From: a virus
Virus record (IMG/VR): IMGVR_UViG_3300047323_000342
Location: 1-28,633 of that record
Length of the DNA: 28,633 nucleotides
Reading direction: 5' to 3' (one strand)
Made by a program: the position numbers and the translations under genes. Below the pieces are notes generated by a model, which saw only the letters and a program-made list of their open reading frames with translations, ran no database searches and was not told the origin of the DNA. Below are positions 5,695 through 28,633 of the stretch, piece after piece. How positions within the stretch are numbered: the first letter of the stretch is position 1; each line of letters starts with the position of its first letter.

Positions 5695-5698
5695 GGCG

Positions 5699-12471: not shown

Positions 12472-12698
12472 TGGCGTTCGATAAAGCCCGCGCGCAATCG
12501 ATGATCGAGCAAGTGCGCGCCAATCTCGGCAAGCTCGATCAGTGCCCGGATCACCAATTCGAGCGCGAGAGCGAGGACGTGCTCACCTCGCATTGGCGGT
12601 GCGCGCTGTGCGGCGGCTCGATCACCGGCATGGCCTATCGCTGGTACATGCGCGGGCGCGCGCACGGCGCCGAGCACGGCGCGGGAGAGCCCGCGTGA
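12471..12698 (+). CDS. Small zinc-finger-like protein (75 aa)
   Basis: 75 residues, ATG overlapping the preceding TGA. Cys25 and His28 (QCPDHQF) with Cys44 and Cys47 (CALCGG) make a plausible C-x2-H / C-x2-C zinc site. The N-terminal 20 residues are a helix (ARAQSMIEQVRANLGKL). It is followed by a GTGA overlap with the hub gene. Its place inside the tail operon suggests a small assembly or regulatory factor; nothing more can be said. Confidence 0.65.
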   Translation: MAFDKARAQSMIEQVRANLGKLDQCPDHQFERESEDVLTSHWRCALCGGSITGMAYRWYMRGRAHGAEHGAGEPA

Positions 12699-13573
12699 TC
12701 CAAGTGAACGATATGCGCGGCGATATGGTTCTGAGCGCGACATTGCGCTCAGACCTCGCGCCTATCCCGCTCACGTTTGAGGGGCAAATCCGCGTCACGC
12801 AACAGACCGGCGCGGACTTCAAAGACGGCCGCCCGATCACGGTGAACGGCGTGCCCTTTCGCATCGTCAAGGCTATCCCGATCCAGAACGCCGGCGGCGG
12901 TGCGCAGGGCCGCGAGCCGCTTACGGCCGTGGACGTGACCGCGTTTCCCGACGGGCTCGAGAAGCTCGCGCAACCGCGCACGGCGGCGGTGATTTTTCAG
13001 AACGCGAAGCTCGGCGGCATCTATCGCGCGTGCGGCGCCACGGTGCCCGTTGAGGGCGATTTCACCGCGAGCGCCTTTGCGTGTTTCATCGGCTCGATTC
13101 CGACGTTCCACATCGCGCGCGTGCTGCAAGAGGAAGGCGCAACCGCGATGTGGCGCAAAGGCGGAATCAAGCTCATGCGACTGCGCGAGGTGATGGCGCA
13201 AACGCCGGTGGATTCCATCGATACGGCCTCGAGCGAGGGCGTGAAAAGCGACACGCTCACCGCCGAACAGATTCCGGTGTATTGGAGCATCGGGCCCGAC
13301 GGCAACGTAATCAGCGCGCCGCGCACCGACGCCGCGCAGGGCGTGGCCTATGTGCCGCGCAAAAGCGCAACCGCGCTCGGGTTCATGGGCCGCGTGCTCG
13401 TGCGCCGGCGAACCATGACGGGAAAGGTAAATCCGTCGATTCGCGCGGGTGACATGGTGACTGTCGCGGGCGTGCCGCACGTCGTTATGACCGTCGTGCA
13501 ACACACGCAGAACGGCGGCGACGGCGGCGGCATCGCGCAGTACACGCGCCTCTTTCTCGGGACGCTCTCGTGA
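12695..13573 (+). CDS. Baseplate hub-like tail protein
   Basis: 292 residues from GTG 12695, with ribosome site GGGAGAGCCC. Predominantly beta: MVLSATLRSDLAPIPLTFEG near the start and GRVLVRRRTMTGKVNPSIRA near residue 230, then GDMVTVAGVPHVVMTVVQHT. This resembles hub proteins of contractile tails (gp27/gpD type), which carry the spike and join it to the tube. The next gene, overlapping by 4 bases, encodes the spike, matching the usual hub-spike order. Assigned mainly on pattern and neighbour. Confidence 0.55.
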   Translation: MIQVNDMRGDMVLSATLRSDLAPIPLTFEGQIRVTQQTGADFKDGRPITVNGVPFRIVKAIPIQNAGGGAQGREPLTAVDVTAFPDGLEKLAQPRTAAVIFQNAKLGGIYRACGATVPVEGDFTASAFACFIGSIPTFHIARVLQEEGATAMWRKGGIKLMRLREVMAQTPVDSIDTASSEGVKSDTLTAEQIPVYWSIGPDGNVISAPRTDAAQGVAYVPRKSATALGFMGRVLVRRRTMTGKVNPSIRAGDMVTVAGVPHVVMTVVQHTQNGGDGGGIAQYTRLFLGTLS

Positions 13574-14178
13574 TCGGCCTCATGCCCGCGTTTATCGACA
13601 CCGTATCGATTGATGACCGAGGCGCGCGCCTGTATCGCGTTCGCATTCCGGGCTTGACCGATAACGGGACCGAGCAACCCATTGCGCAACTGTGCAACCC
13701 GATTGGCGACAAGAGCGAGCACACCGAGATTCGCATCAAGCCCGGTGATCGCGTTTGGCTCGCATTCGAGAACGGCGACACGCGCTATCCGGTGATCGTC
13801 GGATTCCGTCCTAAGAACGTCGGCAATGCGATGGACTGGCGGCGCTTTGAGCACGCCAATTTCGAGTTCAACGCGGACAACACATTCCAGATCATCGCGG
13901 GCACGCAAGTCCACGTCAAAACGCCGCTTGCACTGATCGAAGCGGACAACTCGCACATCACCGGTGACGTGCAGATAGACGGCACTTGCACGGTTGAAAA
14001 GCTGCTCACGTTCAACGGCGGCATGAACGGCCGTGCGGGCGCGAGCGGCGGCCCGGCAATGGTGGTGAGCGGCGGCGCGGCGTTCTCCGATGACGTGGTT
14101 GCCGGCGGAATAAGTCAGACCGGACACACGCACACCGAGCAAGGCGACGGCGCCAATGTGAGCCCGCCACATATGTAA
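13570..14178 (+). CDS. Membrane-piercing tail spike (gpV/gp5 type)
   Basis: 202 residues from GTG 13570 (GTGA overlap with the hub gene). Residues about 7-80 look like the OB-fold at the top of contractile-tail spikes (GARLYRVRIPGLTDNGTEQP, then KPGDRVWLAFENGDTRYPVI). From about 90 the sequence becomes repetitive beta-helix (FEFNADNTFQIIAGTQVHVK, then ITGDVQIDGTCTVEKLLTFN). The tip carries GHTHTEQGDG with His186-x-His188, the HxH motif that binds iron in P2/Mu-type spike tips. The trimer pierces the outer membrane during infection. No lysozyme domain is inserted; that function is in the tape-measure-like protein. Confidence 0.8.
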   Translation: MIGLMPAFIDTVSIDDRGARLYRVRIPGLTDNGTEQPIAQLCNPIGDKSEHTEIRIKPGDRVWLAFENGDTRYPVIVGFRPKNVGNAMDWRRFEHANFEFNADNTFQIIAGTQVHVKTPLALIEADNSHITGDVQIDGTCTVEKLLTFNGGMNGRAGASGGPAMVVSGGAAFSDDVVAGGISQTGHTHTEQGDGANVSPPHM

Positions 14179-14200: not shown

Positions 14201-14686
14201 ATGAAAAACCTGATTTTCGATATTTACAACCTCTCGCACAAAGACAAGTCCATTGCCGCCGCCAAGCGAGCATTCGCGCGCGCGGGCGTGGAGGTGACAA
14301 GCGTTGATGTGGACGCGAAAACGAAAAAGACGCTCGGCATCGAATACCGGGAAGTGCAATTCGGGTTTGCCGATTCGCAAAGCGTGCGCTTTGGCGTGAA
14401 CGCCTCGGGCGACGTGGCGCAGGTAAAGATCAACGGAAAAGTGATTCCGCTGAAAAATCCCGACGATCACGGCAAGGCGATTGCCGAGATTGTCGCGGCG
14501 CTCAACAAGGGCCGCGCGAAGTTTCAGGCCGCGATGGCGAAAGTAAAGATGGCCCTGCCGCCGAGCGTTCGCACGGCGGCGCCCAAGCTCGAGCAAGTGT
14601 GGCGCGAAAAGGTGACGGCGCTCGATGAGGCTATTGAAAGCGCGACCGAAAAACTCAACGGACTCAAGGCTCAACTCGCCGCTTAA
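14201..14686 (+). CDS. Head-region protein, possibly DarA_N-like
   Basis: 161 residues from ATG 14201. Residues about 50-105 contain VQFGFADSQSVRFGVNASGD, then VAQVKINGKVIPLKNPDDHG and KAIAEIVAAL. This recalls, from memory only, the N-terminal part of P1 DarA-related head-packaged proteins (DarA_N). The C-terminal 60 residues are helical and charged (LEQVWREKVTALDEAIESAT, ending KLNGLKAQLAA). Its place between the spike and the major capsid gene suggests an internal head, scaffold or decoration protein. A capsid-borne anti-restriction factor is one possibility; function is uncertain. Confidence 0.55.
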   Translation: MKNLIFDIYNLSHKDKSIAAAKRAFARAGVEVTSVDVDAKTKKTLGIEYREVQFGFADSQSVRFGVNASGDVAQVKINGKVIPLKNPDDHGKAIAEIVAALNKGRAKFQAAMAKVKMALPPSVRTAAPKLEQVWREKVTALDEAIESATEKLNGLKAQLAA

Positions 14687-14812: not shown

Positions 14813-16450
14813 ATGAACGGAACTCAAAACAAGTTCACTCCCCGCGATATGGCGGAAGTGGAAAAATTTGTCGGCGGCGTGATGGACGGCCAAGGCGCGT
14901 CCGCTGCTGGCGTGATGCTCGATTCGACGGCCGCAGCAACGGCCGCCGGCGACGCGCTCAAGAATCAGTCGGGTATGCGCCCGGCCGTGATCGATGAATT
15001 GCTTGGCGTCTCCACGATGGAAGAAGCCGAGGTGCTGAAGTCGATTTTCGACGGCGTGAACGCCTATGAGCGTGAGCACGGTTTCAAGCCGTCGGGCGAC
15101 GTGATCCTGTCCGCAATCGCGCAGGGCAAGGACATTTTCGACTCGGCGACCAACTCGCACCACGATCAAATTTCGCTCACGCCGAATGCGCCTGTCGTGG
15201 CGATTCTCTCGGCGATGGCCGAAGCAACGCCGTTCGCGGGCTATTTGCCGGCTGACCGTGGATCGAACGAAGCGCGCTTGATTATCGTGTCGCACCAAGC
15301 CGGTTCCGACTGGGGCGAATACTCGCAGTCGCAACTGATGGACGGCATCAAGCAGGGCGGCGCGTATCTCGGTTCGACGCGCACGCTGGAACTCGCCGCG
15401 CCCAACGACACGGACGCCTACAAGTTCGTGTACACCACGCAAGTCGCGGCGGGCGCTCCGATCAAGCTGCTGCGTGGCCGCACGATTGTCTACGTGAACG
15501 GCATGATCGCGGCACAGGAAATTTCGAACGGCTCGAGCACCTCGGCGAGCGTTCCGATTGCCGGCACCATCAACCTCGGCGGCACGGACTACGCGCTGGC
15601 GGGCACGATCAAGCCGGGCGCGGGCGAAGTGTCGGTCACGCCGACGCCGGCATTCCCGGCGGGCACCGTCGTTTCGTCCGAAGCGTTTTTCGACTACGAA
15701 GCGGACCCGGACAAGACGCCGCGTATGCAGGTTCAGGCGCAGGTGTACTCGATGTTCGCCTCGCCCTTCCGTGGCATCTATCAGGTGACGCCGGAAAGCC
15801 GTTCGCAGTTCGCGAACGAGGTTGGCGTGGACGCCGGCGCCGAGGCCATGATGGCGGTTCGCGGTCAGTTCGCAATGGAGCGTCATTACAACGCTCTGCG
15901 CAAGGCCAAGATGATCGCGAAGTTCGCGAACAACCGCACGTATGACTTCGATTACGCGCTCCAGATTCAGCAAAAGATTCGCGCGCAAATCTGGCAGGAC
16001 TTCGCCTCGGTTGTCGGCCTCGCTTCGCAGCAAATGGCAGAGGACACGGCGGATCACGGCGTTACGCACATGTACGTCACGAAGTCGGTTGCGGCGCAGT
16101 TCCGCTCGATGGATCGCACGCTGTTCGAACCGTCGGGCATCGTGGACCGGCCGGGCATTTTCCGTGTAGGCCGTCTGTTCGGCATGTACGAGGTGTACTA
16201 CTCGCCGGCCGTCGTCACGGAAAGCGCGGACGGCACGACCGCCGAAATTCTGCTGGTCGGCCGCTCCACGCAAACGGCACGCTGCCCGATCATTTTCGGC
16301 GACGCGCAAGCACCGATGTTCGAACCGCTCGGCACGACCGAAGCCCTGAAGTCGGGCTACGGCTTCACCGCGCGCTGCTTCAACGCGGTGAACCCGCACC
16401 AAATGTCGGCGAAGGGTTGCGCGCTCATCACGGTGACGAACCTCAAGTAA
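14813..16450 (+). CDS. Major capsid protein
   Basis: 545 residues, with ribosome site ATAGGTAAAAC before ATG 14813. The first ~110 residues are helical and charged (TPRDMAEVEKFVGGVMDGQG), as expected of a scaffold-like delta domain. The main body is a large alpha/beta shell domain with an insertion rich in Gly/Ser/Thr (residues about 225-290, NGSSTSASVPIAGTINLGGT) and a late segment YNALRKAKMIAKFANNRTYD. Size is close to that of the P1 major capsid protein. Codon use here is visibly more uniform (GGC, CTG/CTC, GCG, AAC) and the promoter-leader block is one of three extended copies, both signs of very high expression. It should form the HK97-fold icosahedral head. Identified by size, context and expression signals rather than a hallmark motif. 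Confidence 0.75.
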   Translation: MNGTQNKFTPRDMAEVEKFVGGVMDGQGASAAGVMLDSTAAATAAGDALKNQSGMRPAVIDELLGVSTMEEAEVLKSIFDGVNAYEREHGFKPSGDVILSAIAQGKDIFDSATNSHHDQISLTPNAPVVAILSAMAEATPFAGYLPADRGSNEARLIIVSHQAGSDWGEYSQSQLMDGIKQGGAYLGSTRTLELAAPNDTDAYKFVYTTQVAAGAPIKLLRGRTIVYVNGMIAAQEISNGSSTSASVPIAGTINLGGTDYALAGTIKPGAGEVSVTPTPAFPAGTVVSSEAFFDYEADPDKTPRMQVQAQVYSMFASPFRGIYQVTPESRSQFANEVGVDAGAEAMMAVRGQFAMERHYNALRKAKMIAKFANNRTYDFDYALQIQQKIRAQIWQDFASVVGLASQQMAEDTADHGVTHMYVTKSVAAQFRSMDRTLFEPSGIVDRPGIFRVGRLFGMYEVYYSPAVVTESADGTTAEILLVGRSTQTARCPIIFGDAQAPMFEPLGTTEALKSGYGFTARCFNAVNPHQMSAKGCALITVTNLK

Positions 16451-16930: not shown

Positions 16931-18559
16931 ATGTTCTATCCGCATACCCGGCAACTGGGATCGCAGGCCGGCGTTCAACTGAATCAGGTTCGTGACAACA
17001 CGGACGGATTCGTGACGGACGTGAACGATCAGACCGTTGCATTCGTGCTGCGCACCAAGCGCGGCCGAATCGACGCGCCTTTCAAGGTGAACCGTGGCAA
17101 TCTGCGCCGCAAGGCCGGCTCGCCCGAATCGTTGCGCGTCTCGGTGCTCAACGAGGCGATGGTTCACGTCTACGAGGCCGTGAACAATGGCGCACGCGAG
17201 GCGGTGCTCATGCGCCTCACGACCGCGAACGCCTCGAATCAGTACGGCGTGTTCAACGTCGATCCGACGACGGGCGTGAGCGCGTTCTCGGTTAGCTCGG
17301 CGCCGCCGGCATCGAACTATGCGTTCTATCTGCGCGACCTCGAGTGCTTCAACGACGGCGTGATCCTCGAGGTGAACGCGCCGAAGGTGACGGACGCACT
17401 CGGCGTGCCGGTGGCGACGAAGGTTTTCACCGTGCGCGTGAAAGAGCCGGATGGCACGCTGCGCTACGAGGTGACGGGCTCGCTCAATCAGGCCGCCGTC
17501 GATGAGTACGGCAAGGACTATTACATCGGTTCGAAAATCGCCGAGCAGACCGACACCATTCAGATCACGGCCAATCAGGCAACGTCGATTGCGACCAACG
17601 CCGACTGCTACGGCCGCGCATCGGACGGTTCCGAGCGTCTCGCGAAAACCGCCGTGCCGCTGATCCTGTTCCTCGAGAACGGCACCGGCTATTCGAACGA
17701 GGACTATGACCGCGCAATCGCGGCGCTGGAAAAGTCCACGTTCGATTTCGCCTATCTCTCGGCGGGCGGCACGCAAGCAACCGCGCTGATCGGCAAGCTC
17801 GCGACGATGGCCACGCGCGCGAACCGTCAACTGATCGTGGACGTGCCGGGCTCGAGCACGCCGTCGGCGGCGATCACGTTTATGAATCAACTGGGCGTCG
17901 ATACGCGCTACGTGCAAGGCTACTGGGCGCCGTTTTCGAGCAACGATCCGGTGAATGGCGGCCGTGCGGTGATCGGCGTGTCGGGCCTGCAAGCCGGTAT
18001 GCGGTGCGCGCGCAACGCGGAAACGAACAGTTACGGCCTCGCTCCGAAGAACTACCCGATTGCGGGTAAGGACTGGTCGGTGAGCGGCGCGCGTACCGGC
18101 ATTCAACAGTTGCAGAACCCCGACGAGTTCCAATTGAGCGACCTCGCGGACGCGAAGATCAACCCGGTGATTTACCAGACGTTCAACGCCGGCGGCAAAT
18201 TCGTGTTTCTCGATTCGCTCACGTCGGCGAAAACCAACGGCCTGTTGAAGCTCATTTCCACGGCGGAAATGTCCTCGAGCATTGACGACATGATCGCCAA
18301 GTTCGGCAAGGAAGTGATGCAGTTGCCGATGAGCATTGGCCTGAAACGCATGGGCGATTTCCTCACGGAATTGTTCAAGGGTGCGCGCGCCTCGGGCTGG
18401 CTCGTGGCCTCGGAAGATCCGATGCTCGGCGACAAGGGTTGGACGTTCACCGTCAAGCCCAACAAGCAACGCCCGACGGATCGCATGGACGTGGAGTACG
18501 GCCTGCATTACGACGGCGTGGTGCGCGCGATCTACCTGACGCAAACCCTTCAACCGTAA
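16931..18559 (+). CDS. Contractile tail sheath protein
   Basis: 542 residues, with strong ribosome site AAGGAGGGGCA before ATG 16931. The N-terminal half is beta-rich, with tube-proximal and inserted domains (VNDQTVAFVLRTKRGRIDAP). The centre shows SNEDYDRAIAALEKSTFDFA then LSAGGTQATALIGKLATMAT, and RQLIVDVPGSSTPSAAITFM (about 295-315), the alpha/beta core typical of sheath proteins. The C-terminal domain contains SIDDMIAKFGKEVMQLPMSI and ends MDVEYGLHYDGVVRAIYLTQ. The sheath surrounds the tube and contracts to drive it through the envelope, so the virion is a myovirus. Size fits the P1/T4-like range. Confidence 0.8.
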   Translation: MFYPHTRQLGSQAGVQLNQVRDNTDGFVTDVNDQTVAFVLRTKRGRIDAPFKVNRGNLRRKAGSPESLRVSVLNEAMVHVYEAVNNGAREAVLMRLTTANASNQYGVFNVDPTTGVSAFSVSSAPPASNYAFYLRDLECFNDGVILEVNAPKVTDALGVPVATKVFTVRVKEPDGTLRYEVTGSLNQAAVDEYGKDYYIGSKIAEQTDTIQITANQATSIATNADCYGRASDGSERLAKTAVPLILFLENGTGYSNEDYDRAIAALEKSTFDFAYLSAGGTQATALIGKLATMATRANRQLIVDVPGSSTPSAAITFMNQLGVDTRYVQGYWAPFSSNDPVNGGRAVIGVSGLQAGMRCARNAETNSYGLAPKNYPIAGKDWSVSGARTGIQQLQNPDEFQLSDLADAKINPVIYQTFNAGGKFVFLDSLTSAKTNGLLKLISTAEMSSSIDDMIAKFGKEVMQLPMSIGLKRMGDFLTELFKGARASGWLVASEDPMLGDKGWTFTVKPNKQRPTDRMDVEYGLHYDGVVRAIYLTQTLQP

Positions 18560-18571: not shown

Positions 18572-19288
18572 ATGAAAAATTTCCACCCGGCCGCCGACTA
18601 TCTGCGTCCGCTGCTCACGCCGGCGAAGGCAGAGCCGAAGCGCAAGTCGCAAGACGTGTTCGATGACACGGACGACGGACCCTCGGCGGGCTCGAGCTAC
18701 GCCAACGCCGATATGCGCGTGAAAGCCGCCTCTATCGTGCAGGAATTCGCGGCGACCTCGAGCGACTCGCTCGCCGAGGACGAAACGCTCGCGGATCGCC
18801 TGCTCGCGCTCGTTGTCGGCACCATCGACGCGGACAAAGACGGCGAACTCTCCGACGAGGAAGCGCAGGTTGCGTCGATTCTGCTCGATGCGATGTGGAG
18901 CTACCTCTCGAGCAAGGGCGTCTCCGACGAGGACTGCGAGGCGTTGCTCGACAACTGGGACGCGGACGCAGCCGCGCGCGTGCGCGACTTGCTCGCGGAC
19001 GGCGGCGAGGCATCGGACGAGGATATCGACTCGTTCGCGTTCGATGACGACGCGGAATCGGCGGTTTTCGATGACACCGGCGAAGTGATCTACGACGCCG
19101 CGTACAAGAAGAAAACCGTTATTCGGCACGGCAAGAAAGTGCGTATCAACAAGCGCATTTCGGGCCACGTCCGACTGTCGGCGAAGCAAAAGATTGCCGT
19201 GCGCAAGATGGTTCGCAAGAGCCATTCGGCCGTGGCGACGATCCGCCGCATGAAGTCGCTGCGCATTCGCAAGGCATCGGGCCTGTAA
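18572..19288 (+). CDS. Virion-region protein with an EF-hand calcium-binding loop
   Basis: 238 residues, with ribosome site AAAGGAAAC before ATG 18572. Residues 86-97 read DADKDGELSDEE, a textbook 12-residue EF-hand loop with acidic ligands at positions 1, 3, 5 and 12 and Gly at 6; helices are predicted on both sides. The region to about 175 is very acidic (SDEDIDSFAFDDDAESAVFD). The last 70 residues are strongly basic (KKKTVIRHGKKVRINKRISG, then KQKIAVRKMVRKSHSAVATI). This acidic/basic split resembles scaffold-like or DNA-facing assembly proteins. Only one EF-hand loop is seen, so it may dimerise or be a dockerin-like single loop. Calcium-dependent assembly is an inference. Confidence 0.72.
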   Translation: MKNFHPAADYLRPLLTPAKAEPKRKSQDVFDDTDDGPSAGSSYANADMRVKAASIVQEFAATSSDSLAEDETLADRLLALVVGTIDADKDGELSDEEAQVASILLDAMWSYLSSKGVSDEDCEALLDNWDADAAARVRDLLADGGEASDEDIDSFAFDDDAESAVFDDTGEVIYDAAYKKKTVIRHGKKVRINKRISGHVRLSAKQKIAVRKMVRKSHSAVATIRRMKSLRIRKASGL

Positions 19289-19291
19289 GCG

Positions 19292-20119
19292 ATGGCAAAC
19301 ACCCCGAGCCTGAATGGCGGCGGCGAGGCCCGCGTTCTTTCGAGCATTTGGACGGGCCTCAATCCGGCGCTGATCGCACGATTCTTTCCCGTCAAACGGA
19401 TGGAATCGGGCTCGGGGTGGACGCAAGCAACGGGCGTGCGCGAGATTTCCGCGCAAGACAAGTTCTCGGTTGATGACGGCGTTGAGGTTCACTGCCCGAT
19501 CACCGACGGGCAAATGGAAATGTCGCTCAACTGGACAAGTCCGTTTGAGGGCGCGGGCGCCGAGAGCAAGGCGCCCACGCTTTCATCGATGCTCCAATCC
19601 GGCGCGCTCACGCCGCAGTTGCAAGCGATCCTCGGCGACTATCGGGACACCGCCGGCGGCAACGCCGCGCAAAACCTTGTGCGCGACGCAATGGGCCGCA
19701 CCGGTATCACGAAGCTCAATAGCACGCAGGTTTTCTCCGGTATGCCGCCGGTGAAATTCAACCTGACCGCGCATTTCCGGGCGCTGCGCAACCCTATCGA
19801 GGAAGTGCGCGACCCGATCAGTCAGTTGGAAGAATGGTCCGTGCCCGAGTTCCTCGCCGATGACGGCGTGATCGCAAACGCGGTCAAAAACGGCGCGAAT
19901 CAATCCGCGCTGCAAACCATTTTCCCGTCCGTGGCGCCGCAGATTATCGCGATGCGCTATGGCGATGCGACCTACATGCCGCTCGTGCTCGAGGGCGTAG
20001 GCAAACCAATCACCAATCCGCGCAACTCCGACGGCGTGATGATTTCGTGCAGCGTGCAACTCACGCTTTGCACGCTCACGGCATGGGATAGGCGCGACAT
20101 TCGCCGGCTCTACGCATGA
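19292..20119 (+). CDS. Tail or baseplate structural protein
   Basis: 275 residues from ATG 19292, 3 bases after the previous stop. The N-terminus MANTPSLNGGGEARVLSSIW leads to a beta-rich domain. The second half reads VKFNLTAHFRALRNPIEEVR, then APQIIAMRYGDATYMPLVLE and ISCSVQLTLCTLTAWDRRDI. The pattern of a strand, PI-EV-DP, then a last strand ending in LTLCTLTAWDRRD recalls tube-associated baseplate proteins of contractile phages. It overlaps the next gene by 4 bases. It is structural with fair confidence; the exact part is not known. Confidence 0.6.
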   Translation: MANTPSLNGGGEARVLSSIWTGLNPALIARFFPVKRMESGSGWTQATGVREISAQDKFSVDDGVEVHCPITDGQMEMSLNWTSPFEGAGAESKAPTLSSMLQSGALTPQLQAILGDYRDTAGGNAAQNLVRDAMGRTGITKLNSTQVFSGMPPVKFNLTAHFRALRNPIEEVRDPISQLEEWSVPEFLADDGVIANAVKNGANQSALQTIFPSVAPQIIAMRYGDATYMPLVLEGVGKPITNPRNSDGVMISCSVQLTLCTLTAWDRRDIRRLYA

Positions 20120-20886: not shown

Positions 20887-20941
20887 GTTAGCTAACAACC
20901 TGTTCTTAAACTTCGCCAACGACTTTGACAAGTGCTTGGCG

Positions 20942-21103
20942 ATGAAACGCAGTGACGTTAAGGCGCTGTTCGAAAGCAAGGCCATGAAAGACTGGGCCCG
21001 CGCACGCGAGGCGCAGGGAAAGATGGACTTGGCTATCTGCGAACGGCTCGATAACGTGATCCGCGCAATCGGGAGCCTTGGCAAAGTTTTGGCCGGCCGG
21101 TGA
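20942..21103 (+). CDS. Small ORF or frameshifted extension of the preceding gene
   Basis: From ATG 20942 the frame encodes 53 residues: MKRSDVKALFESKAMKDWAR, then AQGKMDLAICERLDNVIRAI, ending LGKVLAGR. The frame is open upstream beyond 20882 and is protein-like from about there (NLSELANNLFLNFANDFDKC). There is no ribosome site before ATG 20942 or TTG 20936, so an independent start is poorly supported. The frame would be reached from the 20116 gene by a +1 or -2 shift near GGA AAA TCT GAG TGA (20875-20886). Either a small gene with an unusual start, or the C-terminal extension of a fusion product. Confidence 0.45.
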   Translation: MKRSDVKALFESKAMKDWARAREAQGKMDLAICERLDNVIRAIGSLGKVLAGR

Positions 21104-21130
21104 CGGCCGCAACCAACCAAGGCACCAACG

Positions 21131-21565: not shown

Positions 21566-22041
21566 AAGCCTTTCAAGCGTATGTGTTCCTGCTGCTGCTC
21601 ATCTTTTGGTCCGCTGCTGCTGTCGCTGCGCAAGTGACCTTCGCGCACGACCTACGCGATATCCCGCCGGCGGCCGTCGGCATCTCGGTTCTGCTCGCGG
21701 TGATTGGCGGTTCCGCGTGGACGGCATCGAAGCTCGCCGCGCCCGACGTGGTGGTTAAGAGCGTGCCGCTCGAGGTGCTTAAGGACTTGCTCGCCTCGGT
21801 TGTGATCGGCCTTGTGACGTTTTTCGCCGGCACTTATTTCGAGTGGCCGTCTGTCGTGCAGGCCGGGCTTATCACGCTCGGCGGCTATGGCGGATCGCGC
21901 GTGCTCGAGCCGTTGCTCGCGATTGGCGTCAAGCGCCTCGCGCGGTTTTTCGGCGTGGATGAGGCAACGCTCACGCCGCCGCCCGCCCTGCCGCCGGCTA
22001 CCCCGCCGGCCGATCCGGCCGCCAATGGAGAGTCGCAATGA
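21544..22041 (+). CDS. Holin-like membrane protein
   Basis: 165 residues from ATG 21544, with ribosome site AAGGA 10 bases upstream. Hydrophobic segments: AYVFLLLLIFWSAAAVAAQV, AVGISVLLAVIGGSAWTASK and LLASVVIGLVTFFAGTYFEW, then a weak fourth near LITLGGYGGSRVL. The soluble C-terminus is Pro-rich (PPPALPPATPPADPAA). The endolysin start overlaps its stop (ATGA), the usual holin-endolysin arrangement. It should form the pores that let the endolysin reach the wall. Confidence 0.72.
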   Translation: MPANLQLKAFQAYVFLLLLIFWSAAAVAAQVTFAHDLRDIPPAAVGISVLLAVIGGSAWTASKLAAPDVVVKSVPLEVLKDLLASVVIGLVTFFAGTYFEWPSVVQAGLITLGGYGGSRVLEPLLAIGVKRLARFFGVDEATLTPPPALPPATPPADPAANGESQ

Positions 22042-22673
22042 GAGTCACGCTCGAGCAACTGCGCGCGCTCGCGCCGCGCTCGCCGGCGAAGTTTGCTGAA
22101 TGGGTGGAGCCGCTCAACGCGGCGCTCGCCGAGTTCGGCATCACAACCGAGCAACGCATCGAAATGTTCCTCGCGCAGACGTTGCACGAGACGCTCGGCT
22201 ATTCGGCGCTGTCGGAGAACCTCAACTATTCGGCGGCCGGGCTCGCGAATACATGGGAACGATTCAGCACGACGGGCAAGCGCGGCGGGCCGCCCAATGC
22301 GCTCGCCAAGGCCCTCGAGCGGCGCCCGCAAGCCATTGCGAGCAACGTGTACGCGAATCGCCTTGGCAACGGCTCAGAGGCCGGCGGCGAGGGTTGGTTG
22401 TATCGCGGGCGCGGCCTGCTGCACACGACCGGCAAAGCGAACTATGAGGCCACGCAAAAGGGGACCGGCATTCCCTGTCTGAGCAACCCCGATGCGCTGC
22501 TCGAGCCGCTCAATGCGGCGCGCGCGGCGGGGTGGTTCTGGAAAGCGCACGGCCTCAACGAGATAGCCGACGCCGGCAATTTCAAGGGCACAACGAAAGT
22601 GGTCAATGGCGCCGATATCGGCGGTGCCGAGCGCATTGGTTTGTGGAATCTCACGCAAAAGGTGATCGCATGA
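22038..22673 (+). CDS. GH19 endolysin (muramidase/chitinase fold)
   Basis: 211 residues from ATG 22038. GH19 core visible: RIEMFLAQTLHETLGYSALS with likely catalytic Glu51 and second acid Glu60, NTWERFSTTGKRGG, GEGWLYRGRGLLHTTGKANY and AGWFWKAHGLNEIADAGNFK. There is no signal peptide, so it is cytosolic and depends on the holin at 21544. It degrades peptidoglycan at lysis. The stop overlaps the next start (ATGA). It is only loosely similar to the GH19 domain in the tape-measure-like protein, so the two probably have separate origins. Confidence 0.88.
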   Translation: MRVTLEQLRALAPRSPAKFAEWVEPLNAALAEFGITTEQRIEMFLAQTLHETLGYSALSENLNYSAAGLANTWERFSTTGKRGGPPNALAKALERRPQAIASNVYANRLGNGSEAGGEGWLYRGRGLLHTTGKANYEATQKGTGIPCLSNPDALLEPLNAARAAGWFWKAHGLNEIADAGNFKGTTKVVNGADIGGAERIGLWNLTQKVIA

Positions 22674-23251
22674 GCACGACGGCCGCACACACACAGCACG
22701 AGACGCTCGAGGTTGAGGTGAACGTGCCGGCGCACGCCAAGCGCGAGACGACGGCGCTTTTCCGGCGCTCGCGCGAGCAACTGATCGAGCGCGAAAAAGG
22801 CCGCTGTTGGGTTTCGGGCCTCACCGCCGAGCAAACCGGGCATCCCCTCGAGGCACACCATCACCCTATCGAGCGGTGCATGGCGGAAATGATCGACTGG
22901 GACCGCTTCGCTCACGACGCGCGCGCCGGGCACTGGGGCCCGCACGCGCAAGGGTTCGACTGGGAGGCGTTTTTCGAAGGCGCCACGCTCGAGCACGTCA
23001 CGATTGATCCGACCGAGGATCAACCGGGCGCCGAGCCCTACACGATCACGTTCCGCCGCCCGCGCGACCCGTATCTGTTTGTGGACGATATGACGGTCAA
23101 TGGCTTGCTGCTCGCGCGTGACTATCACACCGGCCGCAACGAGGGCATTCACGACCTGCCCTACCCCATTTGGATCGCACGCAAGTACGGGCGTGAGGGC
23201 TACGTGTTCTCGAGCGTCGAAACGATTCACAACGCGCGCGAGAGCGCGTAA
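22670..23251 (+). CDS. HNH-like protein in the lysis cluster
   Basis: 193 residues from ATG 22670, overlapping the endolysin stop. Residues about 30-70 contain SREQLIEREKGRCWVSG and LEAHHHPIERCMAEMIDWDR, with Cys46 and His63-65. This resembles an HNH-type metal site in which the usual paired cysteines are reduced. The C-terminal part has FRRPRDPYLFVDDMTVNGLL, then LARDYHTGRNEGIHDLPYPI and WIARKYGREGYVFSSVETIH, a conserved block in phage relatives as I recall. HNH nucleases often sit near packaging genes, but this one is in the lysis region. Nuclease activity is a guess. Confidence 0.6.
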   Translation: MSTTAAHTQHETLEVEVNVPAHAKRETTALFRRSREQLIEREKGRCWVSGLTAEQTGHPLEAHHHPIERCMAEMIDWDRFAHDARAGHWGPHAQGFDWEAFFEGATLEHVTIDPTEDQPGAEPYTITFRRPRDPYLFVDDMTVNGLLLARDYHTGRNEGIHDLPYPIWIARKYGREGYVFSSVETIHNARESA

Positions 23252-24344: not shown

Positions 24345-25262
24345 ATGGATTGGCAACTTGCTTCGGATTTCGGCACGATCAACGGCTTTGGCGTGGACAA
24401 CCGCGCGGCCCTGCAAGACGCACTCAACTCGACGGCGGCGCTTGGCCGTGGTCTTATCATCGACGGTCAGTACGGCCTGCAATTCGATAGCTCGCACGCG
24501 GAACTCGTCGTGCCGTCGAATTCGAACATCAAGTTTCAGCCGGGCGCGGCGCTGAAGCTGCTGCCGCACGACCTGAAGGCGTACAACGTCTTTTTGATCG
24601 ACGGCGTTTCGAACGTCGTCATCGAGCGCCCGCTTATCGACGGCGCGAAGGAACTGAACGCCGATCCGGGCACATTCGAGTCGGAATACGGCATGGGCAT
24701 CGGCCTGTACGATGCAACGAACGTCACGATCATCGACCCGGATATCCGCAATACGTGGGGTGACGGCATCTACATCGGCGGCGGCGCGAAGTGCCAGAAC
24801 ATCAACATTCACAATCCAGTCATCGGCGGCTGCCGTCGCAACGGTATGTCGATTGTGACCGTCGATGGCCTGAAAGTCTGGAGCCCGCTCATCAAGCGGA
24901 TCAACGACACGAACCCGAAGGCCGGTATTGACTTCGAACCCAACAACAACGACTGCGAACTGAAGAACATTTTCATCTATTCGCCGCGCACGGTGAACTG
25001 CAATCTCGGCATCGAGTTCTACATGGACAACTTCCCGGGTCCGAAGCCGAAGGTTGTGTCGATCAGCGTGCTCGATTTCAAGTCGATCAACGACGGCGAT
25101 ACGTCGCTGTTCTTCGGCGACTTGCAGAAGGGCACGAACTCGGTTTCGGGCACGATCAACGTGCATAACGTGCGCTACGTGAAGCCGAACATCGCCAAGG
25201 GCATCCAGAACTGGGACAACTCGATTGTTATGTCCGTGACGGGCGAAACCACGATCAGCTAA
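24345..25262 (+). CDS. Right-handed beta-helix protein, probable tail spike or decoration
   Basis: 305 residues from ATG 24345, with a weak site AGGGCAATACA. The N-terminus (DWQLASDFGTINGFGVDNRA, then ALQDALNSTAALGRGLIIDG) resembles the start of pectate-lyase-like phage tailspikes. Repeating strands follow: VSNVVIERPLIDGAK, ATNVTIIDPDIRNTWGDGIY, CQNINIHNPVIGG and LKVWSPLIKRIND, a clear parallel beta-helix. There is no separate receptor or catalytic signature. It has its own capsid-type promoter element, leader and terminator, and sits apart from the tail operon, implying high and independent expression. A host-binding spike, depolymerase or head decoration are the options; spike is favoured. 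Codon use is as uniform as in the capsid gene. Confidence 0.7.
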   Translation: MDWQLASDFGTINGFGVDNRAALQDALNSTAALGRGLIIDGQYGLQFDSSHAELVVPSNSNIKFQPGAALKLLPHDLKAYNVFLIDGVSNVVIERPLIDGAKELNADPGTFESEYGMGIGLYDATNVTIIDPDIRNTWGDGIYIGGGAKCQNINIHNPVIGGCRRNGMSIVTVDGLKVWSPLIKRINDTNPKAGIDFEPNNNDCELKNIFIYSPRTVNCNLGIEFYMDNFPGPKPKVVSISVLDFKSINDGDTSLFFGDLQKGTNSVSGTINVHNVRYVKPNIAKGIQNWDNSIVMSVTGETTIS

Positions 25263-25288
25263 TCAGCAAAGTCGCGGTTTGATGCACG

Positions 25289-25323
25289 AAACCCGGTTCG
25301 TTATGCGCGAACCGGGTTTTTTT
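25289..25323 (+). terminator. Strong terminator after the beta-helix gene
   Basis: AAACCCGGTTCG - TTATGCG - CGAACCGGGTTT, with seven T in all. The 12-bp perfect stem ends at the stop codon of the convergent rep gene. It closes the virion/lysis region and protects the replication module from read-through. Confidence 0.9.
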
Positions 25324-26518
25324 ATGCGCTCGCGCGCTCAAAGGCTCGATAGCCCGTCACATGCGCGGGCTTGTTCCACTTACCCGTTTCCTCATTGAAG
25401 CTCGCGCCCGGATGCGCGGCGATATAGGCGGCGCGAAGTTCCGCGCGGCGCTCATCGGTGAGGCTCGCCGAGGCTTTGCGCGCCTCGTTCGATTGCTTGT
25501 CTTTCGCGACCTCATCGGGCTTGTTGTGTGGCAATGGTGCGGCCTGCTGTTGCTTGCGATCCGGTACCGGCGCGCGATCACGGAAAAGCGTGAAGGCGAG
25601 GCCGCCCGGGTTATCAACGCCGGGCCGTTTGACGTGCGCGGCAAGGTTGAGCGCGTATTGCTCGCCCATAAGCTCGATCACGCTCGTTGCCAACTTGCCG
25701 TCGAAGCCTATGCCTTGCAGGGCTTTGTAGCCCTCGGTTTCCCTGATTCCGTCCGACTCGGGGCTCTCATGCAGGAAAGAGGTTTGCGGGTTCTCGGATA
25801 CCTCGAATCGGATGCGCTCTACTTTGCGCCCTACCTTTTCCTCGTGCAGCGTGACGAAAATGTTTGATACGCGATTCACCTCGGCGACCGCCGGCACGAG
25901 CACCTTGGACTTGAAAACCTTGTAGCTGTCGTATGTGGACGGAAGCGCGTTCCTGTCTTTGTCGTATTTGATGGTCCCGAGCAAGCGCCGCCACTTCTCG
26001 ACGCCGTGAAAGCCGGTGGAGCCCGTTTTGAGGTACCGCGCGCAATTCTCGTAGAGCGAGAGCGAGTGCGTGCGCTCAAATTGGCGCTGCACGTTCATGT
26101 TGATGACGCCGAATATCTCAGGATCGGCGAGTTTGCGCTGTAGCTCGGGCGCGTATGCGTACTTGCACACACCGTTCTTGAGAACGGCTTGCGCGAGCAG
26201 CGTCATTGCACCCCAGTCAATCGAGGCGTCCTCATCATCGTCCATGAGATTGAACTCAATCGGCGCAACAACGATGTTCTTAAGCGCCTTCTTGAGCGCG
26301 GGCGAATTATTGCTTGCATCCCAACCCAACATCGCGCAGAGGGCAGTTTGCGAGATAAAGAACTCGCGCGCGCTCTCATCGGGAATTTTCTCGAATGCGT
26401 TGAGCAACAGAATGTTCACGAGTTTGCGCTCGGTAACGGTTAGATCACCGCCCGCGTGGATCGTGGACACATGTTTTTTTAGGGACTTCTGTTTGGCGAC
26501 CTTGGGTGCTTGAGGCAT
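25322..26518 (-). CDS. Plasmid replication initiator, Rep_3 family
   Basis: 398 residues from ATG 26518, chosen because AAAGGAG lies 7 bases upstream; the frame is open further back without a ribosome site. Rep_3 pattern: two winged-helix domains. The first covers about 30-165 (VTERKLVNILLLNAFEKIPD, then FFISQTALCAMLGWDASNNS and SLSLYENCARYL); the second covers about 170-270 (GVEKWRRLLGTIKYDKDRNA, then YKVFKSKVLVPAVAEVNRVS and KVERIRFEVSENPQ). The C-terminus (from about 330) is Lys/Gln-rich and probably flexible. The protein binds the iterons next to its own start, recruits host DnaA/DnaB and usually represses itself. It converges on the virion module, so prophage replication is plasmid-like. 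Confidence 0.88.
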   Translation of the reverse strand: MPQAPKVAKQKSLKKHVSTIHAGGDLTVTERKLVNILLLNAFEKIPDESAREFFISQTALCAMLGWDASNNSPALKKALKNIVVAPIEFNLMDDDEDASIDWGAMTLLAQAVLKNGVCKYAYAPELQRKLADPEIFGVINMNVQRQFERTHSLSLYENCARYLKTGSTGFHGVEKWRRLLGTIKYDKDRNALPSTYDSYKVFKSKVLVPAVAEVNRVSNIFVTLHEEKVGRKVERIRFEVSENPQTSFLHESPESDGIRETEGYKALQGIGFDGKLATSVIELMGEQYALNLAAHVKRPGVDNPGGLAFTLFRDRAPVPDRKQQQAAPLPHNKPDEVAKDKQSNEARKASASLTDERRAELRAAYIAAHPGASFNEETGKWNKPAHVTGYRAFERASA

Positions 26519-26600
26519 GGCAATCTCCTTTGCGCCTCGATCATGCCCGCGTAGGTAACTTTTCGCAAGTACCTTTTTATACCCTAGGATATCTACCATA

Positions 26601-26833
26601 CTCCCCTATCCGGGTACCTTTCCGCTCGCCGCCCGAATTCTGCTCCCCTAAAAGGGTACCGTTCATAGCATTATTGGCACTTGATTATCCTTTGGAATCA
26701 ATGGGTTAAGCGTGTTTTTCGTGGGGCCTATGAGTGCTCCCCTATCCGGGTACCTGTTCCCCTATCCGGGTACCTTTCGCGCTCGTTTTGCTCCCCGATC
26801 CGGGTACCGTTGCTCCCCGATGAGGGTACCTTA
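26601..26833 (+). repeat. Iteron array, probable origin of replication
   Basis: Six direct repeats of about 18-22 bp with consensus GCTCCCCtATCCGGGTACC. Positions: 26601-26620, 26642-26663 (ATCC replaced by AAAA), 26736-26758, 26756-26777, 26790-26811 and 26812-26833. The last four form a near-continuous block and the first two lie between it and rep. The gap at 26664-26735 is AT-rich (CATAGCATTATTGGCACTTG) and suits strand opening. No exact DnaA box was found; TTATCCTTT at about 26688 is a poor match. This is the typical Rep_3 origin layout. The repeats should bind the Rep protein at 25322. Confidence 0.88.
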
Positions 26834-26841
26834 TCGGCCGC

Positions 26842-26864
26842 AAAGCCTTACCTGTTAAGGCTTT
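26842..26864 (+). other. Inverted repeat beside the iterons
   Basis: AAAGCCTTA - CCTGT - TAAGGCTTT, a perfect 9-bp inverted repeat 9 bases after the last iteron. A second, imperfect one (GCAAAGTCTTTAAAGGTTTGC without its last base pair match) follows at 26872-26892. These may be operators, primer-site hairpins or part of a small RNA. Confidence 0.55.
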
Positions 26865-26905
26865 CAGAAACGCAAAGTCTTTAAAGGTTTGCTGTTTACT
26901 TAAAT

Positions 26906-26940
26906 GCAGCAAGGGCACGCCCTCGCTGCTGCTGTTTTTT
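26906..26940 (+). terminator. Possible rightward terminator in the origin region
   Basis: GCAGC-A-AGGG ... CCCT-C-GCTGC with a CACG loop, then TGCTG and TTTTTT. One mismatch in the stem and a 5-base gap before the T run make it moderate. No rightward gene precedes it between 26519 and 26905, so it may end a short untranslated RNA crossing the iterons. Confidence 0.4.
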
Positions 26941-26959
26941 AGACGCGAAAAGCGACGAA

Positions 26960-26976
26960 CCCGGCTCGAGGCCGGG
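26960..26976 (-). terminator. GC hairpin downstream of the H-NS-like gene
   Basis: CCCGGC-TCGAG-GCCGGG, 64 bases beyond the leftward stop at 27040. Reading leftward it is followed by TTCGTCGCTTTTCGCG, a weak U-rich stretch. It may be a terminator for the partition/H-NS operon. Confidence 0.35.
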
Positions 26977-27039
26977 CTCAACTTTGGTTAGCGAAACGCC
27001 AATGCTTGCATTATGCATGTATCACTAACGGCGGGCGTG

Positions 27040-27489
27040 CTAATGCGTCATGGCGGGGCGGGCCTCTTGATTCGGGCGCGCGTCGGCGTTTGCGATCAGG
27101 TATTCATCGCGCGGCCCTGTCATCCACTTCGGTTGCGGCCCTCGCCCGCTCCACGTCTGCCCGGTTTCCGGGTTCACGTATTTCGGTGCCGGCGCGGCTT
27201 TCGGCTCTTGCGCGGCAAAGGTGCGCTCGGATTTCTTCTCGCGCTTGGCCGGGATCAGTTGCGTTTTGACGAACCCGCATTCGAACGCGGTCAGTCCCCA
27301 ACGTGCGATGAGCGACTTGACCGTTTCCAGATCGCGGGCGCTTTCCTCGGCGCGCGCGGCCTCAATCTGTCGATCCAGTTTCGCGCGCTGCTCGAGCAAC
27401 GCCTCGTAGCGGCTCTCAGGCGTGCGAAGGGGCGAACGTTTCGGTCCCCCGTTTGCGGCGGGCGTGTCGGTGGTTCTACGGCGTGGCAT
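27040..27489 (-). CDS. H-NS-family nucleoid-associated protein (xenogeneic silencer type)
   Basis: 149 residues, with ribosome site AAGGAG before ATG 27489. Residues about 25-52 form the N-terminal coiled coil (SRYEALLEQRAKLDRQIEAA). Residues 104-123 carry the H-NS DNA-binding signature (YVNPETGQTWSGRG, then PQPKWM), with the TWSGRG loop that inserts in the minor groove of AT-rich DNA. This C-terminal form is that of the beta-proteobacterial Bv3F/H-NS group. Plasmid H-NS proteins lower the cost of the plasmid and can silence late phage genes. It lies 5 bases after the RHH gene stop, so it is in the partition operon. The linker is long and basic. Confidence 0.85.
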   Translation of the reverse strand: MPRRRTTDTPAANGGPKRSPLRTPESRYEALLEQRAKLDRQIEAARAEESARDLETVKSLIARWGLTAFECGFVKTQLIPAKREKKSERTFAAQEPKAAPAPKYVNPETGQTWSGRGPQPKWMTGPRDEYLIANADARPNQEARPAMTH

Positions 27490-27494
27490 TGCGC

Positions 27495-27848
27495 TTACTC
27501 TCCTTCCGGGTGGTAATACTTCTCGATGCAGCGCGCGACTTCGGCCTCGATGGCGCGGCGCACGAGCGCGGCAATTTTGGAGTCAGGCACGTTCTTGGTA
27601 CACCACTTGAGTTTCTTGTGCATCTCGTCGGTGACGGTGGTGGTGAACGTGACCGTTTTTTCCGGGTTGTGATCCGCCCACGGTGGCGGCGGCGCGCCCT
27701 TGCGCTCGCGCAGATCGAGCGCGGCCTGATTCGGGTTCACCTTGCGCGCGCCGGCGGGCGACACGCGCGCGGGCGGCTCCGATACATCGGGTATCGGCAC
27801 TAAATCGTCGGGCTTGAATTCAAATCCGGGTTTCAGCGCGTATCGCAT
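27495..27848 (-). CDS. Ribbon-helix-helix-like DNA-binding protein, probable partition factor 1
   Basis: 117 residues, ATG at 27848 preceded by GGGGATTAGATC. The first 60 residues are Pro-rich and disordered. Residues 64-105 (KTVTFTTTVTDEMHKKLKWC, then NVPDSKIAALVRRAIEAEVA) form a short strand, helix, turn, helix pattern typical of ribbon-helix-helix proteins, with an extra C-terminal helix. The strand-LKW-KN-PD block is shared with the neighbour at 27860, so the two genes look like an old tandem duplication. It probably binds plasmid DNA and takes part in partition with the ParA-like protein; also possible is an operon repressor. Confidence 0.65.
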   Translation of the reverse strand: MRYALKPGFEFKPDDLVPIPDVSEPPARVSPAGARKVNPNQAALDLRERKGAPPPPWADHNPEKTVTFTTTVTDEMHKKLKWCTKNVPDSKIAALVRRAIEAEVARCIEKYYHPEGE

Positions 27849-27859
27849 GATCTAATCCC

Positions 27860-28459
27860 CTATCGTTTGAACTGCTCTTTCATGGCGGCTTTGATAATCG
27901 GGAGTTCCATCGTCCGCTCGATTTTTTCGTCTATCGCCTGAAACACAAGTTTCTGAATCGACATATCGGGCAGATTTTTCACGAGCCATTTAAGGCGCTC
28001 GTGTAATGGCCTGTCGAATTTCGCATTGAATCCGACCGGCTTTAATTCGTCGGTGACAAGCTCCCACGGCGGCACAGCCTCGGGCTCGGCGGGTTTCACC
28101 GGTGCGGCGGGCTCTTTGGCCGGCTTGGCGGCCGTTTTCGCGGCCGTTTTCGCGGCCGTGGCGGGCTTTTTGGCCGTGGTGACGGGTTTCCACTCGGCAT
28201 TGGGGGCGGCGGCGGCCTCGCTGGCCGAATTTTTGGCCTCTGGCGGGCTTGCCGGGCTCTCGGCATCACGCTCGGGCTCGGCGGCGGCCGGCGGCGGCGT
28301 GGCGGGCCCGTTTCCGGCCTCGCTCGCGGCGTTGGGCACGGCGCGGCGCTCGCGTTCCGTTTCGGCCACGTACTTGCTGATGTTCGCCTCGCGCGCGAGT
28401 CGTGCCGCCTCGAGTGCGGCGGCCTGCCGTTCCTGCTTCGTGGGCTTGGTTTCAGACAT
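27860..28459 (-). CDS. Ribbon-helix-helix-like DNA-binding protein, probable partition factor 2
   Basis: 199 residues from ATG 28459, with GAGG 9 bases upstream; the stop of the gene before it overlaps this start. Residues 1-30 are charged helix (TKQERQAAALEAARLAREAN). About 50-140 is Ala/Pro/Lys low complexity (KKPATAAKTAAKTAAKPAKE). The folded end, about 155-199, is VGFNAKFDRPLHERLKWLVK then NLPDMSIQKLVFQAIDEKIE. This matches the tail of the protein at 27495 (LHERLKWLVKNLPD vs MHKKLKWCTKNVPD). Its position right after a probable ParA gene fits a ParB/ParG-type centromere-binding role. Confidence 0.65.
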   Translation of the reverse strand: MSETKPTKQERQAAALEAARLAREANISKYVAETERERRAVPNAASEAGNGPATPPPAAAEPERDAESPASPPEAKNSASEAAAAPNAEWKPVTTAKKPATAAKTAAKTAAKPAKEPAAPVKPAEPEAVPPWELVTDELKPVGFNAKFDRPLHERLKWLVKNLPDMSIQKLVFQAIDEKIERTMELPIIKAAMKEQFKR

Positions 28460-28633
28460 TCGGGAATACCTCGCTGAAAACGGCCTCACACTCGGCGAGC
28501 GCCTTTTTATCGAGCGGCTTCTGTTCGACGATGGCCTCGCCGTCATCGGCCCACGTCTTATAGGCGTTGCGCGTCGCCATGACCGAGCCGAGCAATTCGA
28601 AATGATGGAACTCGGCAACCTTTTTGTAGAACG
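28452..28633 (-). CDS. Probable ParA-type ATPase, C-terminal end only
   Basis: Leftward frame entering from the right edge; 59 residues are visible, stop TGA 28454-28452. It reads FYKKVAEFHHFELLGSVMAT, then WADDGEAIVEQKPLDKKALA and ends ECEAVFSEVFPNV. The run VMATRNAYKTWADDG followed by EAIVE and KKALAECEAVF-EVF fits the end of plasmid ParA proteins, but no Walker motif is in view. It overlaps the start of the RHH gene by 8 bases, as parA-parB pairs often do. Confidence 0.5.
   Translation of the reverse strand, partial: FYKKVAEFHHFELLGSVMATRNAYKTWADDGEAIVEQKPLDKKALAECEAVFSEVFPNV

Follow-up and report, generated by a model that had tools for sequence, protein, structure and literature searches.

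A probable P1-like phage-plasmid lineage with a putative exchangeable iteron and Rep-core cassette beside its lysis genes

A 28,633-base stretch of virus DNA (IMG/VR record IMGVR_UViG_3300047323_000342, classed linear; hereafter the window) was analysed, in which a Rep_3 plasmid initiator gene converges on a myovirus virion and lysis block. The window very probably represents about a third of a circular, P1-like, plasmid-persisting myovirus of 88-98 kb, in which iterons and the DNA-binding Rep core make up an exchangeable cassette. This reading was carried, at the level of sequence, by the gene content of the window, a convergent layout conserved in relatives, the circularity of relatives, a mosaic rep gene with its breakpoints in the plasmid pBVIE05, and an intragenic break in the rep gene of the window. 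The cassette may have been exchanged to change incompatibility. The initial annotation, made from the letters of the window alone, had named the element a phage-plasmid, and the layout of the relatives, their circularity and the integrase searches largely upheld this.

Junction of lysis and plasmid genes in the window and its relatives

The window was organized into a rightward virion block (5.7-25.3 kb), ending in lysis genes and a beta-helix protein, and a leftward block of plasmid functions (28.6-25.3 kb). The convergence of the two transcription units, as annotated, followed from the orientation of the open reading frames (ORFs). The features of the leftward block were as follows:

25288..25320, no strand: hairpin separating the convergent virion and rep units, probable terminator; folding energy -29.3 kcal/mol; z -2.6 (+) and -3.3 (-)
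25322..26599, minus: Rep_3 replication initiator, 425 amino acids (aa); Pfam Rep3_N/Rep3_C (PF01051, PF21205) over cut-offs; core about aa 38-330
25322..25507, minus: rep 3' end, encoding the C-terminal domain (aa 365-425) and including the stop codon; class A, retained in the mosaic; 68-70% to pBVIE05/G009 versus 22% to three plasmid Reps
26602..26660, no strand: rep-proximal iteron cluster, 2 copies
26661..26737, no strand: spacer between the iteron clusters, 43% GC, with an element common to relatives
26738..26830, no strand: rep-distal iteron cluster, 4 copies
27040..27489, minus: H-NS family protein, variable cargo; PF00816 38.6 bits (cut-off 25.6); 48% in G005 at the same position
27495..27848, minus: small par-operon protein (called RHH2); 34-36% to orthologues in pBVIE05 and G001
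27860..28459, minus: small par-operon protein (called RHH1); 36-38% to orthologues over 55-96 aa
28452..28633, minus: ParA C-terminal end, cut by the contig end; 39-41% to the ParA ends of G001/pBVIE05, 55% to G006 and G007

The 40 ORFs of the window were compared with four genomes by tblastn. Matches were found for 26 ORFs in pBVIE05, a finished circular plasmid of Burkholderia vietnamiensis G4 (CP000621.1, 88,096 bp), for 27 in G001, a virus record of 94,463 bp, for 14 in Xanthomonas phage Rb1 and for 8 in P1 (E <= 1e-3). Gene order and convergent layout of pBVIE05 were like those of the window, and the order of lysis genes, converging rep, a gap with iterons, two small par genes and parA was identical in pBVIE05 and G001. 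A near-identity DNA search with the window returned one plasmid and no phage, and the sheath scan of genome contigs returned only Methylocucumis (34%). A single-protein Rep search of virus contigs gave no relative; the Rep alignment search instead gave seven loci.

Thirteen further records were chosen from the loci of the sheath, endolysin, portal and Rep scans (9, 64, 12 and 7 rows), many endolysin matches near 40% being left outside this choice. Rep_3 was found in 8 of the 13, and the same junction in 6 of those 8 (G005, G006, G007, G008, G009 and G016). G016, which ends within the rep region, duplicates G009 and was counted once. In total, the junction was present in pBVIE05 and seven virus records, six of them distinct, and four of these were 93-98 kb. 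G014, G015, G003 (which stops before the junction) and G010-G013 (no Rep_3) were left out of the lineage counts. G014 and G015 carried Rep_3, but the stretches read contained none of the virion genes of the lineage, and G014 had no sheath in the whole record. These two virus records (L121 and L122; 92.9 and 15.3 kb), with a Rep_3 cousin at 36%, possibly represent another phage-plasmid group.

A phage joined to an unrelated plasmid by misassembly or as a one-off cointegrate could have produced such a join, the window being a metagenomic fragment without end repeats. However, the identical join occurred in an isolate plasmid, pBVIE05, and in the seven other records; a misassembled join was rejected on this recurrence, and this origin was considered extremely improbable. 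Rep and iterons on a separate, fused plasmid, which the initial annotation had named as evidence against its reading, were not indicated; in the relatives both were part of the same recurring junction.

Circularity and recombinases of the relatives

Complete genomes of the lineage were taken to be circular or terminally redundant and about 88-98 kb long, so that the window covers about 30% of one. Exact terminal direct repeats were found in G005 (105 bp) and G007 (77 bp), and near-terminal repeats in G001 (127 bp, close to its end) and G006 (44 bp at 95%). Virion gene order ran across the contig ends in G001 and G007. Chromosomal flanks, which the initial annotation had named as evidence against a phage-plasmid, were not indicated in the relatives, given the circular pBVIE05, the terminal repeats and the order across contig ends.

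Three observations weigh against reading the window as part of such a genome. Its ends share no repeat and do not support circularity of its own; it includes no immunity or terminase region and little of the partition region; and four sibling records of 85-91 kb are without Rep_3.

The initial annotation had seen no integrase, and a search for tyrosine integrases in the window was likewise negative, the window being a fragment that cannot settle absence. No tyrosine integrase was found in the 13 further records, five of them fragments shorter than 25 kb. In a search of four records it was absent from pBVIE05, G001 and Rb1, and P1 showed Cre. The four siblings (G010, G011, G012 and G013; 85-91 kb) carried the lineage virion module, no Rep_3 and a PF00239 recombinase each. 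In G010 and G011, the neighbours of the lysis genes included one gene resembling parA (identified by eye) and a small one resembling a par gene.

An integrative temperate phage that carries Rep_3 by chance would agree with the PF00239-family recombinases and missing Rep_3 of Rb1 and G010-G013, all carriers of the virion module, and with the single PF00239 match in pBVIE05. However, the Rep_3-bearing G001, G005, G006 and G007 had neither a tyrosine integrase nor a PF00239 recombinase, and Rep_3-bearing relatives had terminal repeats or circular gene order, pBVIE05 being a circular plasmid. This explanation was rejected on the integrase and recombinase searches of the relatives and was considered very improbable.

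Rep_3 initiator and iterons

The annotated Rep_3 initiator was confirmed. Both winged-helix domains (WH1 and WH2) scored over the Pfam cut-offs (Rep3_N 52.4 bits, cut-off 22.4; Rep3_C 46.2 bits, cut-off 21.1), iterons were adjacent, and Foldseek matched the winged-helix core of the structure model to RepE54 and pi. The model had a mean predicted local distance difference test score (pLDDT) of 70.8 and consisted of a WH1-WH2 core with helices to residue 340, a low-confidence linker (349-359) and, as a separate domain, C-terminal helices (361-425).

The six iterons of the initial annotation also withstood analysis: TCCCC(T/G)ATNNGGGTACC occurred six times at 26602-26830, with 0.02 expected and 0 of 100 shuffles reaching six. 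Two iteron groups were located upstream of rep in all eight distinct members, 94-127 bp apart (start to start). For G005, where the automatic gap call fell on a stray distal match, the distance between the groups was 116 bp. The window, G009, G006 and G001 each had a repeat type of their own, pBVIE05, G007 and G008 shared one type, and the repeats of G005 were similar to that type.

A short spacer element was detected by motif in 7 of the 8 members (23 of 4000 mononucleotide shuffles). The same motif was absent from G014, G015 and the ordinary plasmid rep upstream regions compared (0 of 11); PREW-6R, whose available upstream DNA was too short, was omitted. Because the element is shared by members and was not seen in the 11 plasmid origins, the cassettes appear to circulate within the lineage and not to come from ordinary plasmids.

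Mosaic structure of rep

Core and C-terminus of Rep gave different groupings. In the core (aa 38-330 of the window), pBVIE05, G007 and G008 were alike at 78-95%, and the other pairs among the eight shared 34-48%. The window core was 43-45% identical to three Burkholderia/Paraburkholderia plasmid Reps versus 34-40% to lineage members (34% to pBVIE05, whose iterons were unrelated). The C-terminus fell into three classes, namely window/G009/pBVIE05 (68-74%; window with pBVIE05, 68%), G001/G005/G006 (61-65%) and G007/G008 (72%), with 17-36% between classes.

The pBVIE05 Rep combined two of these types. Its core shared 78-80% with G007/G008 (80% with G008) and 34-39% with window/G009 (39% with G009), whereas its C-terminus shared 24-25% with G007/G008 and 68-74% with window/G009 (74% with G009). 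The pBVIE05 Rep is therefore a G007/G008-type core with a G009-type end. The flanking genes of pBVIE05 were nearest to those of G009/G016, with the sheath at 77%, gp21 at 87%, the endolysin at 84%, RHH2 at 93% and RHH1 at 64%.

In 60-nt windows, the DNA of pBVIE05 was 73-95% identical to G009 until about 39,480 of CP000621 and thereafter more similar to G007/G008; this upstream break (about 39.48 kb) falls after the RHH2 stop and before the first iteron. From 40,980 the DNA was again G009-like (70-82%), with the break near 40.95 kb, and the informative sites in rep placed the downstream break at codons 336-341. The exchanged block was 1.4-1.5 kb long, with DNA identity switching at both ends. 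The intragenic break in the rep gene of the window lay in the linker, bounded by aa 337 and aa 361; no close donor of the window core was found, and the break is defined against distant partners only.

Permutation counts in the breakpoint tests were 0 of 2000 for all six triples with the window, G009 or pBVIE05 as query and 103-1781 of 2000 for all six control triples (three plasmid-only, three of other lineage classes); the tests were picked after the pattern had been seen, and the permutations allow for the choice of breakpoint, not of triple.

The pattern could also have arisen by divergence in place, the core evolving fast to escape incompatibility and the C-terminus being constrained, with no recombination. 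Every lineage Rep occupies the same junction, the spacer element is common to members with very different cores, and a single clade was not rejected at 0.05. Against this, two parents are visible in the pBVIE05 rep (core 78-80% to G007/G008, C-terminus 74% to G009), the DNA identity of the block switches at both ends, and three ordinary plasmid Reps had the opposite trend, the C-terminus being the less conserved part (48-53%, core 69-77%). Divergence in place was considered unlikely for the lineage; for the window alone, with no close donor, it is harder to exclude.

Several further results, besides the choice of triples and the missing donor of the window core, weigh against the exchange of a cassette. 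The Rep tree included, besides pBVIE05, homologues from 12 of 454 matching plasmid records. With all columns, a common origin for the Reps of the window, pBVIE05 and G001 was not rejected by the approximately unbiased test (p-AU 0.133). The core-only tree was borderline for the window with pBVIE05 (p-AU 0.0545) and for all three (0.0725), and the pairs with G001 were not rejected (0.173 and 0.137). In the core tree, pBVIE05 grouped with Paraburkholderia plasmid Reps (96/99), a placement among long branches that shifts once the window is omitted. The iterons of G005 resemble the pBVIE05/G007/G008 type, whereas its core does not. G006 pairs virion genes of the G007/G008 group with a Rep C-terminus of the G001/G005 class; the C-terminus is therefore itself mobile and an imperfect lineage marker. 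The pBVIE05 flanks are not purely G009-like: its ParA shared 78% with G001 versus 68% with G009, and ParA therefore also moves on its own.

Hairpin, cargo and partition genes

The strong terminator annotated between the convergent units stood in part. The hairpin at 25288-25320 was stronger than shuffles on both strands; however, the generic consensus terminator scan did not list it and gave no excess over shuffles. No sigma-70 promoter-like site was found in the promoter scan, which performed no better than shuffles.

The H-NS protein was confirmed by its PF00816 score (38.6 bits versus 25.6), and its ORF was unmatched in pBVIE05 and G001. The beta-helix spike-like protein on the other side of rep had no tblastn match in pBVIE05 or G001 either. 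In G005 both positions are likewise occupied, by the spike gene (88%) and by an H-NS gene, so the two genes appear to be cargo of some members.

Two RHH-like proteins had been annotated upstream of rep. They were orthologues (34-38%) of both genes between ParA and Rep in pBVIE05, which supports their place in a par operon and not the RHH fold, as neither had a Pfam or NCBIfam RHH match. The probable ParA end was substantiated by its match to the C-terminus of the 225-aa pBVIE05 ParA (41% over 56 aa); its own hidden Markov model support was weak (phrog_164, E 0.044). The pBVIE05 ParA had AAA_31 over the cut-off and, as query, matched ParA proteins of 224-235 aa in G001, G005, G006, G007, G008 and G009. 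A search with the DNA pattern of the window 3' end found no overlapping virus contig that would complete its ParA.

Virion and lysis block

The virion and lysis genes of the initial annotation were recovered by PHROG or Pfam matches for the portal, capsid, sheath, tube, baseplate, holin, endolysin and beta-helix protein. The features of the rightward block were as follows:

231..623, plus: Ulx-like anti-restriction protein (P1 ulx family); phrog_1629 8e-32; 73% to pBVIE05; 33% over 63 aa to P1
5727..7457, plus: portal protein; phrog_1497 7e-159; 69-73% to pBVIE05/G001; 26% to P1 prt
7457..8302, plus: tail tube-related protein; phrog_24337 7e-99; phrog_1842 tube 1.6e-10; 25% over 81 aa to P1 at the tub gene
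8299..10818, plus: tail transglycosylase or tape-measure-like protein with C-terminal GH19 domain; phrog_4067, phrog_181 and tape-measure PHROGs; PF00182
11473..11961, plus: tail tube protein; phrog_1120 5e-44
12542..13573, plus: tail protein; phrog_1390 2e-42
13570..14178, plus: baseplate protein with gpV/gp5-like OB domain; PF04717 24.1 bits (cut-off 23.8); 32% over 82 aa to P1 gene 5
14201..14686, plus: Hdf-like antirestriction protein; phrog_1620 7e-41; P1 Hdf 30%
14813..16450, plus: major capsid protein, P1 gp23/T4 Gp23-like; phrog_1014 1e-133; PF07068 below cut-off; 23% to P1 gp23, E 7e-19
16931..18559, plus: tail sheath, P1 gp22-like; phrog_1036 2e-136; 61-64% to pBVIE05/G001; 22% to P1 gp22
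18572..19288, plus: gp21-position protein; phrog_1053 2e-48; after the sheath, as P1 gene 21
19292..20119, plus: PmgG-like morphogenesis protein; phrog_1114 2e-59
21652..22038, plus: holin, LydA superfamily III; PF16083 36.6 bits (cut-off 28.4); phrog_6384
22038..22673, plus: GH19 endolysin; phrog_181 5e-73; 56-70% to pBVIE05 and G001
22670..23251, plus: HNH endonuclease-family protein; phrog_8048 6e-30; same position in G001 and G005-G009
24345..25262, plus: beta-helix spike-like protein, variable cargo at the junction; phrog_14824; PF13229 below cut-off; 88% in G005 at the same position

A defective P1-like plasmid that has kept its virion genes and no longer makes particles is another explanation, and pBVIE05 was deposited as a plasmid. 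However, the reading frames listed for virion, lysis and anti-restriction proteins are uninterrupted and, except for the spike, share 53-78% with pBVIE05/G001; the isolated Xanthomonas phage Rb1 has a homologous virion module (34-52%); and most relatives came from the virus collection, which is weak evidence. A defective plasmid was considered an improbable account of the lineage, and a plasmid-persisting myovirus was preferred.

The GH19 domains at the C-terminus of the tail transglycosylase (8299-10818) and in the endolysin (22038-22673) belong to the same PHROG, and the domain is apparently duplicated. On the minus strand, 637-1305 encodes a non-homologous end joining (LigD)-type ATP-dependent DNA ligase domain of 222 aa, unmatched in pBVIE05, G001, Rb1 and P1. 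At 1527-2311, a HicB-like antitoxin (PF15919 155 bits), unmatched in pBVIE05, is overlapped downstream by an ORF with matches in G001 (65% over 51 aa) and in pBVIE05 (51% over 39 aa). From the HicB region to the portal (2400-5700), small ORFs were unmatched in pBVIE05, G001, Rb1 and P1. No tRNA was found in the window.

Two other metagenome records (L006 and L007) matched the window at 14593-22876 with 99.88% DNA identity, which indicates that the same phage was present in more than one sample. A sheath relative (45%) with a terminase small subunit nearby was observed in a 708,898-bp record of Ideonella dechloratans annotated as a plasmid (L026, NZ_CP088082.1), possibly a cointegrate.

Comparison with known systems

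The initial annotation had called the layout P1-like in kind, with proteins that do not look like close P1 relatives. Identities of 22-33% bear out the distance, and a close P1 relative was rejected on them; homology to P1 was nevertheless detectable (8 of 40 ORFs). In P1 (NC_005856, Punavirus), homologues were found of the portal (26%), capsid gp23 (23%), sheath gp22 (22%), baseplate gene 5 (32%), Hdf (30%) and Ulx (33%). The window has the P1-homologous virion genes (portal, gp23, sheath, baseplate and Pmg) and the iteron replicon with initiator that mark a P1-like phage-plasmid. P1 likewise has RepA-binding iterons, and its RepA reached the Rep3_N cut-off (25.7, cut-off 22.4) and fell just below that of Rep3_C (20.5, cut-off 21.1). 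In P1, however, repA-parA-parB precede gene 23 on the same strand, whereas rep of the window converges on the lysis end. P1 ParA has 398 aa with a helix-turn-helix (HTH) domain, whereas pBVIE05 ParA has 225 aa without HTH, and P1 has Cre, with no match in the window or the relatives searched. Punavirus comprises close P1 relatives with P1-type RepA/ParAB and Cre-lox. With its low identities, the small ParA type in pBVIE05 and no Cre-like match, the window falls outside it.

Xanthomonas phage Rb1 (PQ569993.1, 91,478 bp) is an isolated phage that shares the virion genes; it differs in having no Rep_3 match and a long serine recombinase. Escherichia phage D6, a phage-plasmid of the P1 group, provided the only named-phage Rep among 4 matches in 50,697 records (two D6 entries); it is enterobacterial, and identity was 30% over 28% of Rep. 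In the part of the tyPPing study consulted, D6 is an example of P1 subgroup 2, and both P1 groups are enterobacterial (PMC12977533).

Modular Pseudomonas replicons (RepA-PFP/RepJ) are, in the sections of the source seen, chimeras of exchangeable modules in which the exchanged module carries incompatibility, the control module being swapped before rep genes of unrelated families (PMC5304414). In the lineage described here, unlike these replicons, iterons and DNA-binding core would be swapped within one phage initiator gene. Exchange of replication and partition functions between phage-plasmids and plasmids, possibly escaping incompatibility, has been proposed from gene-level counts, as given in the portion consulted (PMC10879196). 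For mycobacteriophages, diversified partition genes and exchanged maintenance cassettes are described in the part available to us (PMC7157519). In the open-licence PubMed Central literature, supplements excluded, no paper was found on pBVIE05 as a phage or on intragenic exchange of a phage-plasmid initiator, and no description of the lineage was found in that literature (pBVIE05, Rb1, Burkholderia phage-plasmids).

Discussion

For the element of the window we infer replication, partition, lysogeny and particle production, as well as its host. In the lysogen, plasmid replication would begin with binding of the Rep_3 initiator to the six iterons ahead of its gene, arranged as two clusters with an AT-richer spacer between them, and ParA with its small partner proteins would segregate the plasmid copies. 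After induction, the rightward virion-lysis operon would lead to a contractile-tailed particle. The hairpin between this operon and rep may act in both directions.

The iterons and the DNA-binding core of Rep would behave as one cassette, replaced between two kept flanks, the par genes upstream and the last approximately 60 codons of rep, with the downstream crossover in the linker before the C-terminal domain. An origin would fail unless the iterons and the domain that reads them change together, and a cassette carrying both would meet this need; an edge in the inter-domain linker would leave a working chimeric initiator. Such an exchange would be expected to give an otherwise unchanged phage a new incompatibility specificity. 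As with replication and particle formation, this expectation draws on the known behaviour of iteron plasmids.

We tentatively propose that the lineage changes its plasmid identity by swapping an iteron and Rep-core cassette into a socket formed by the par genes and the C-terminal domain, and that close phages may then cohabit one cell. Here an exchange is visible inside one gene, with both breakpoints, a donor type and a recipient type in a finished plasmid and its relatives, so that the incompatibility idea can be put to a direct test on small replicons. The lineage may serve as an anchor for P1-like phage-plasmids outside the enterobacteria, and exchange of the cassette would change which plasmids can share a cell with the element.

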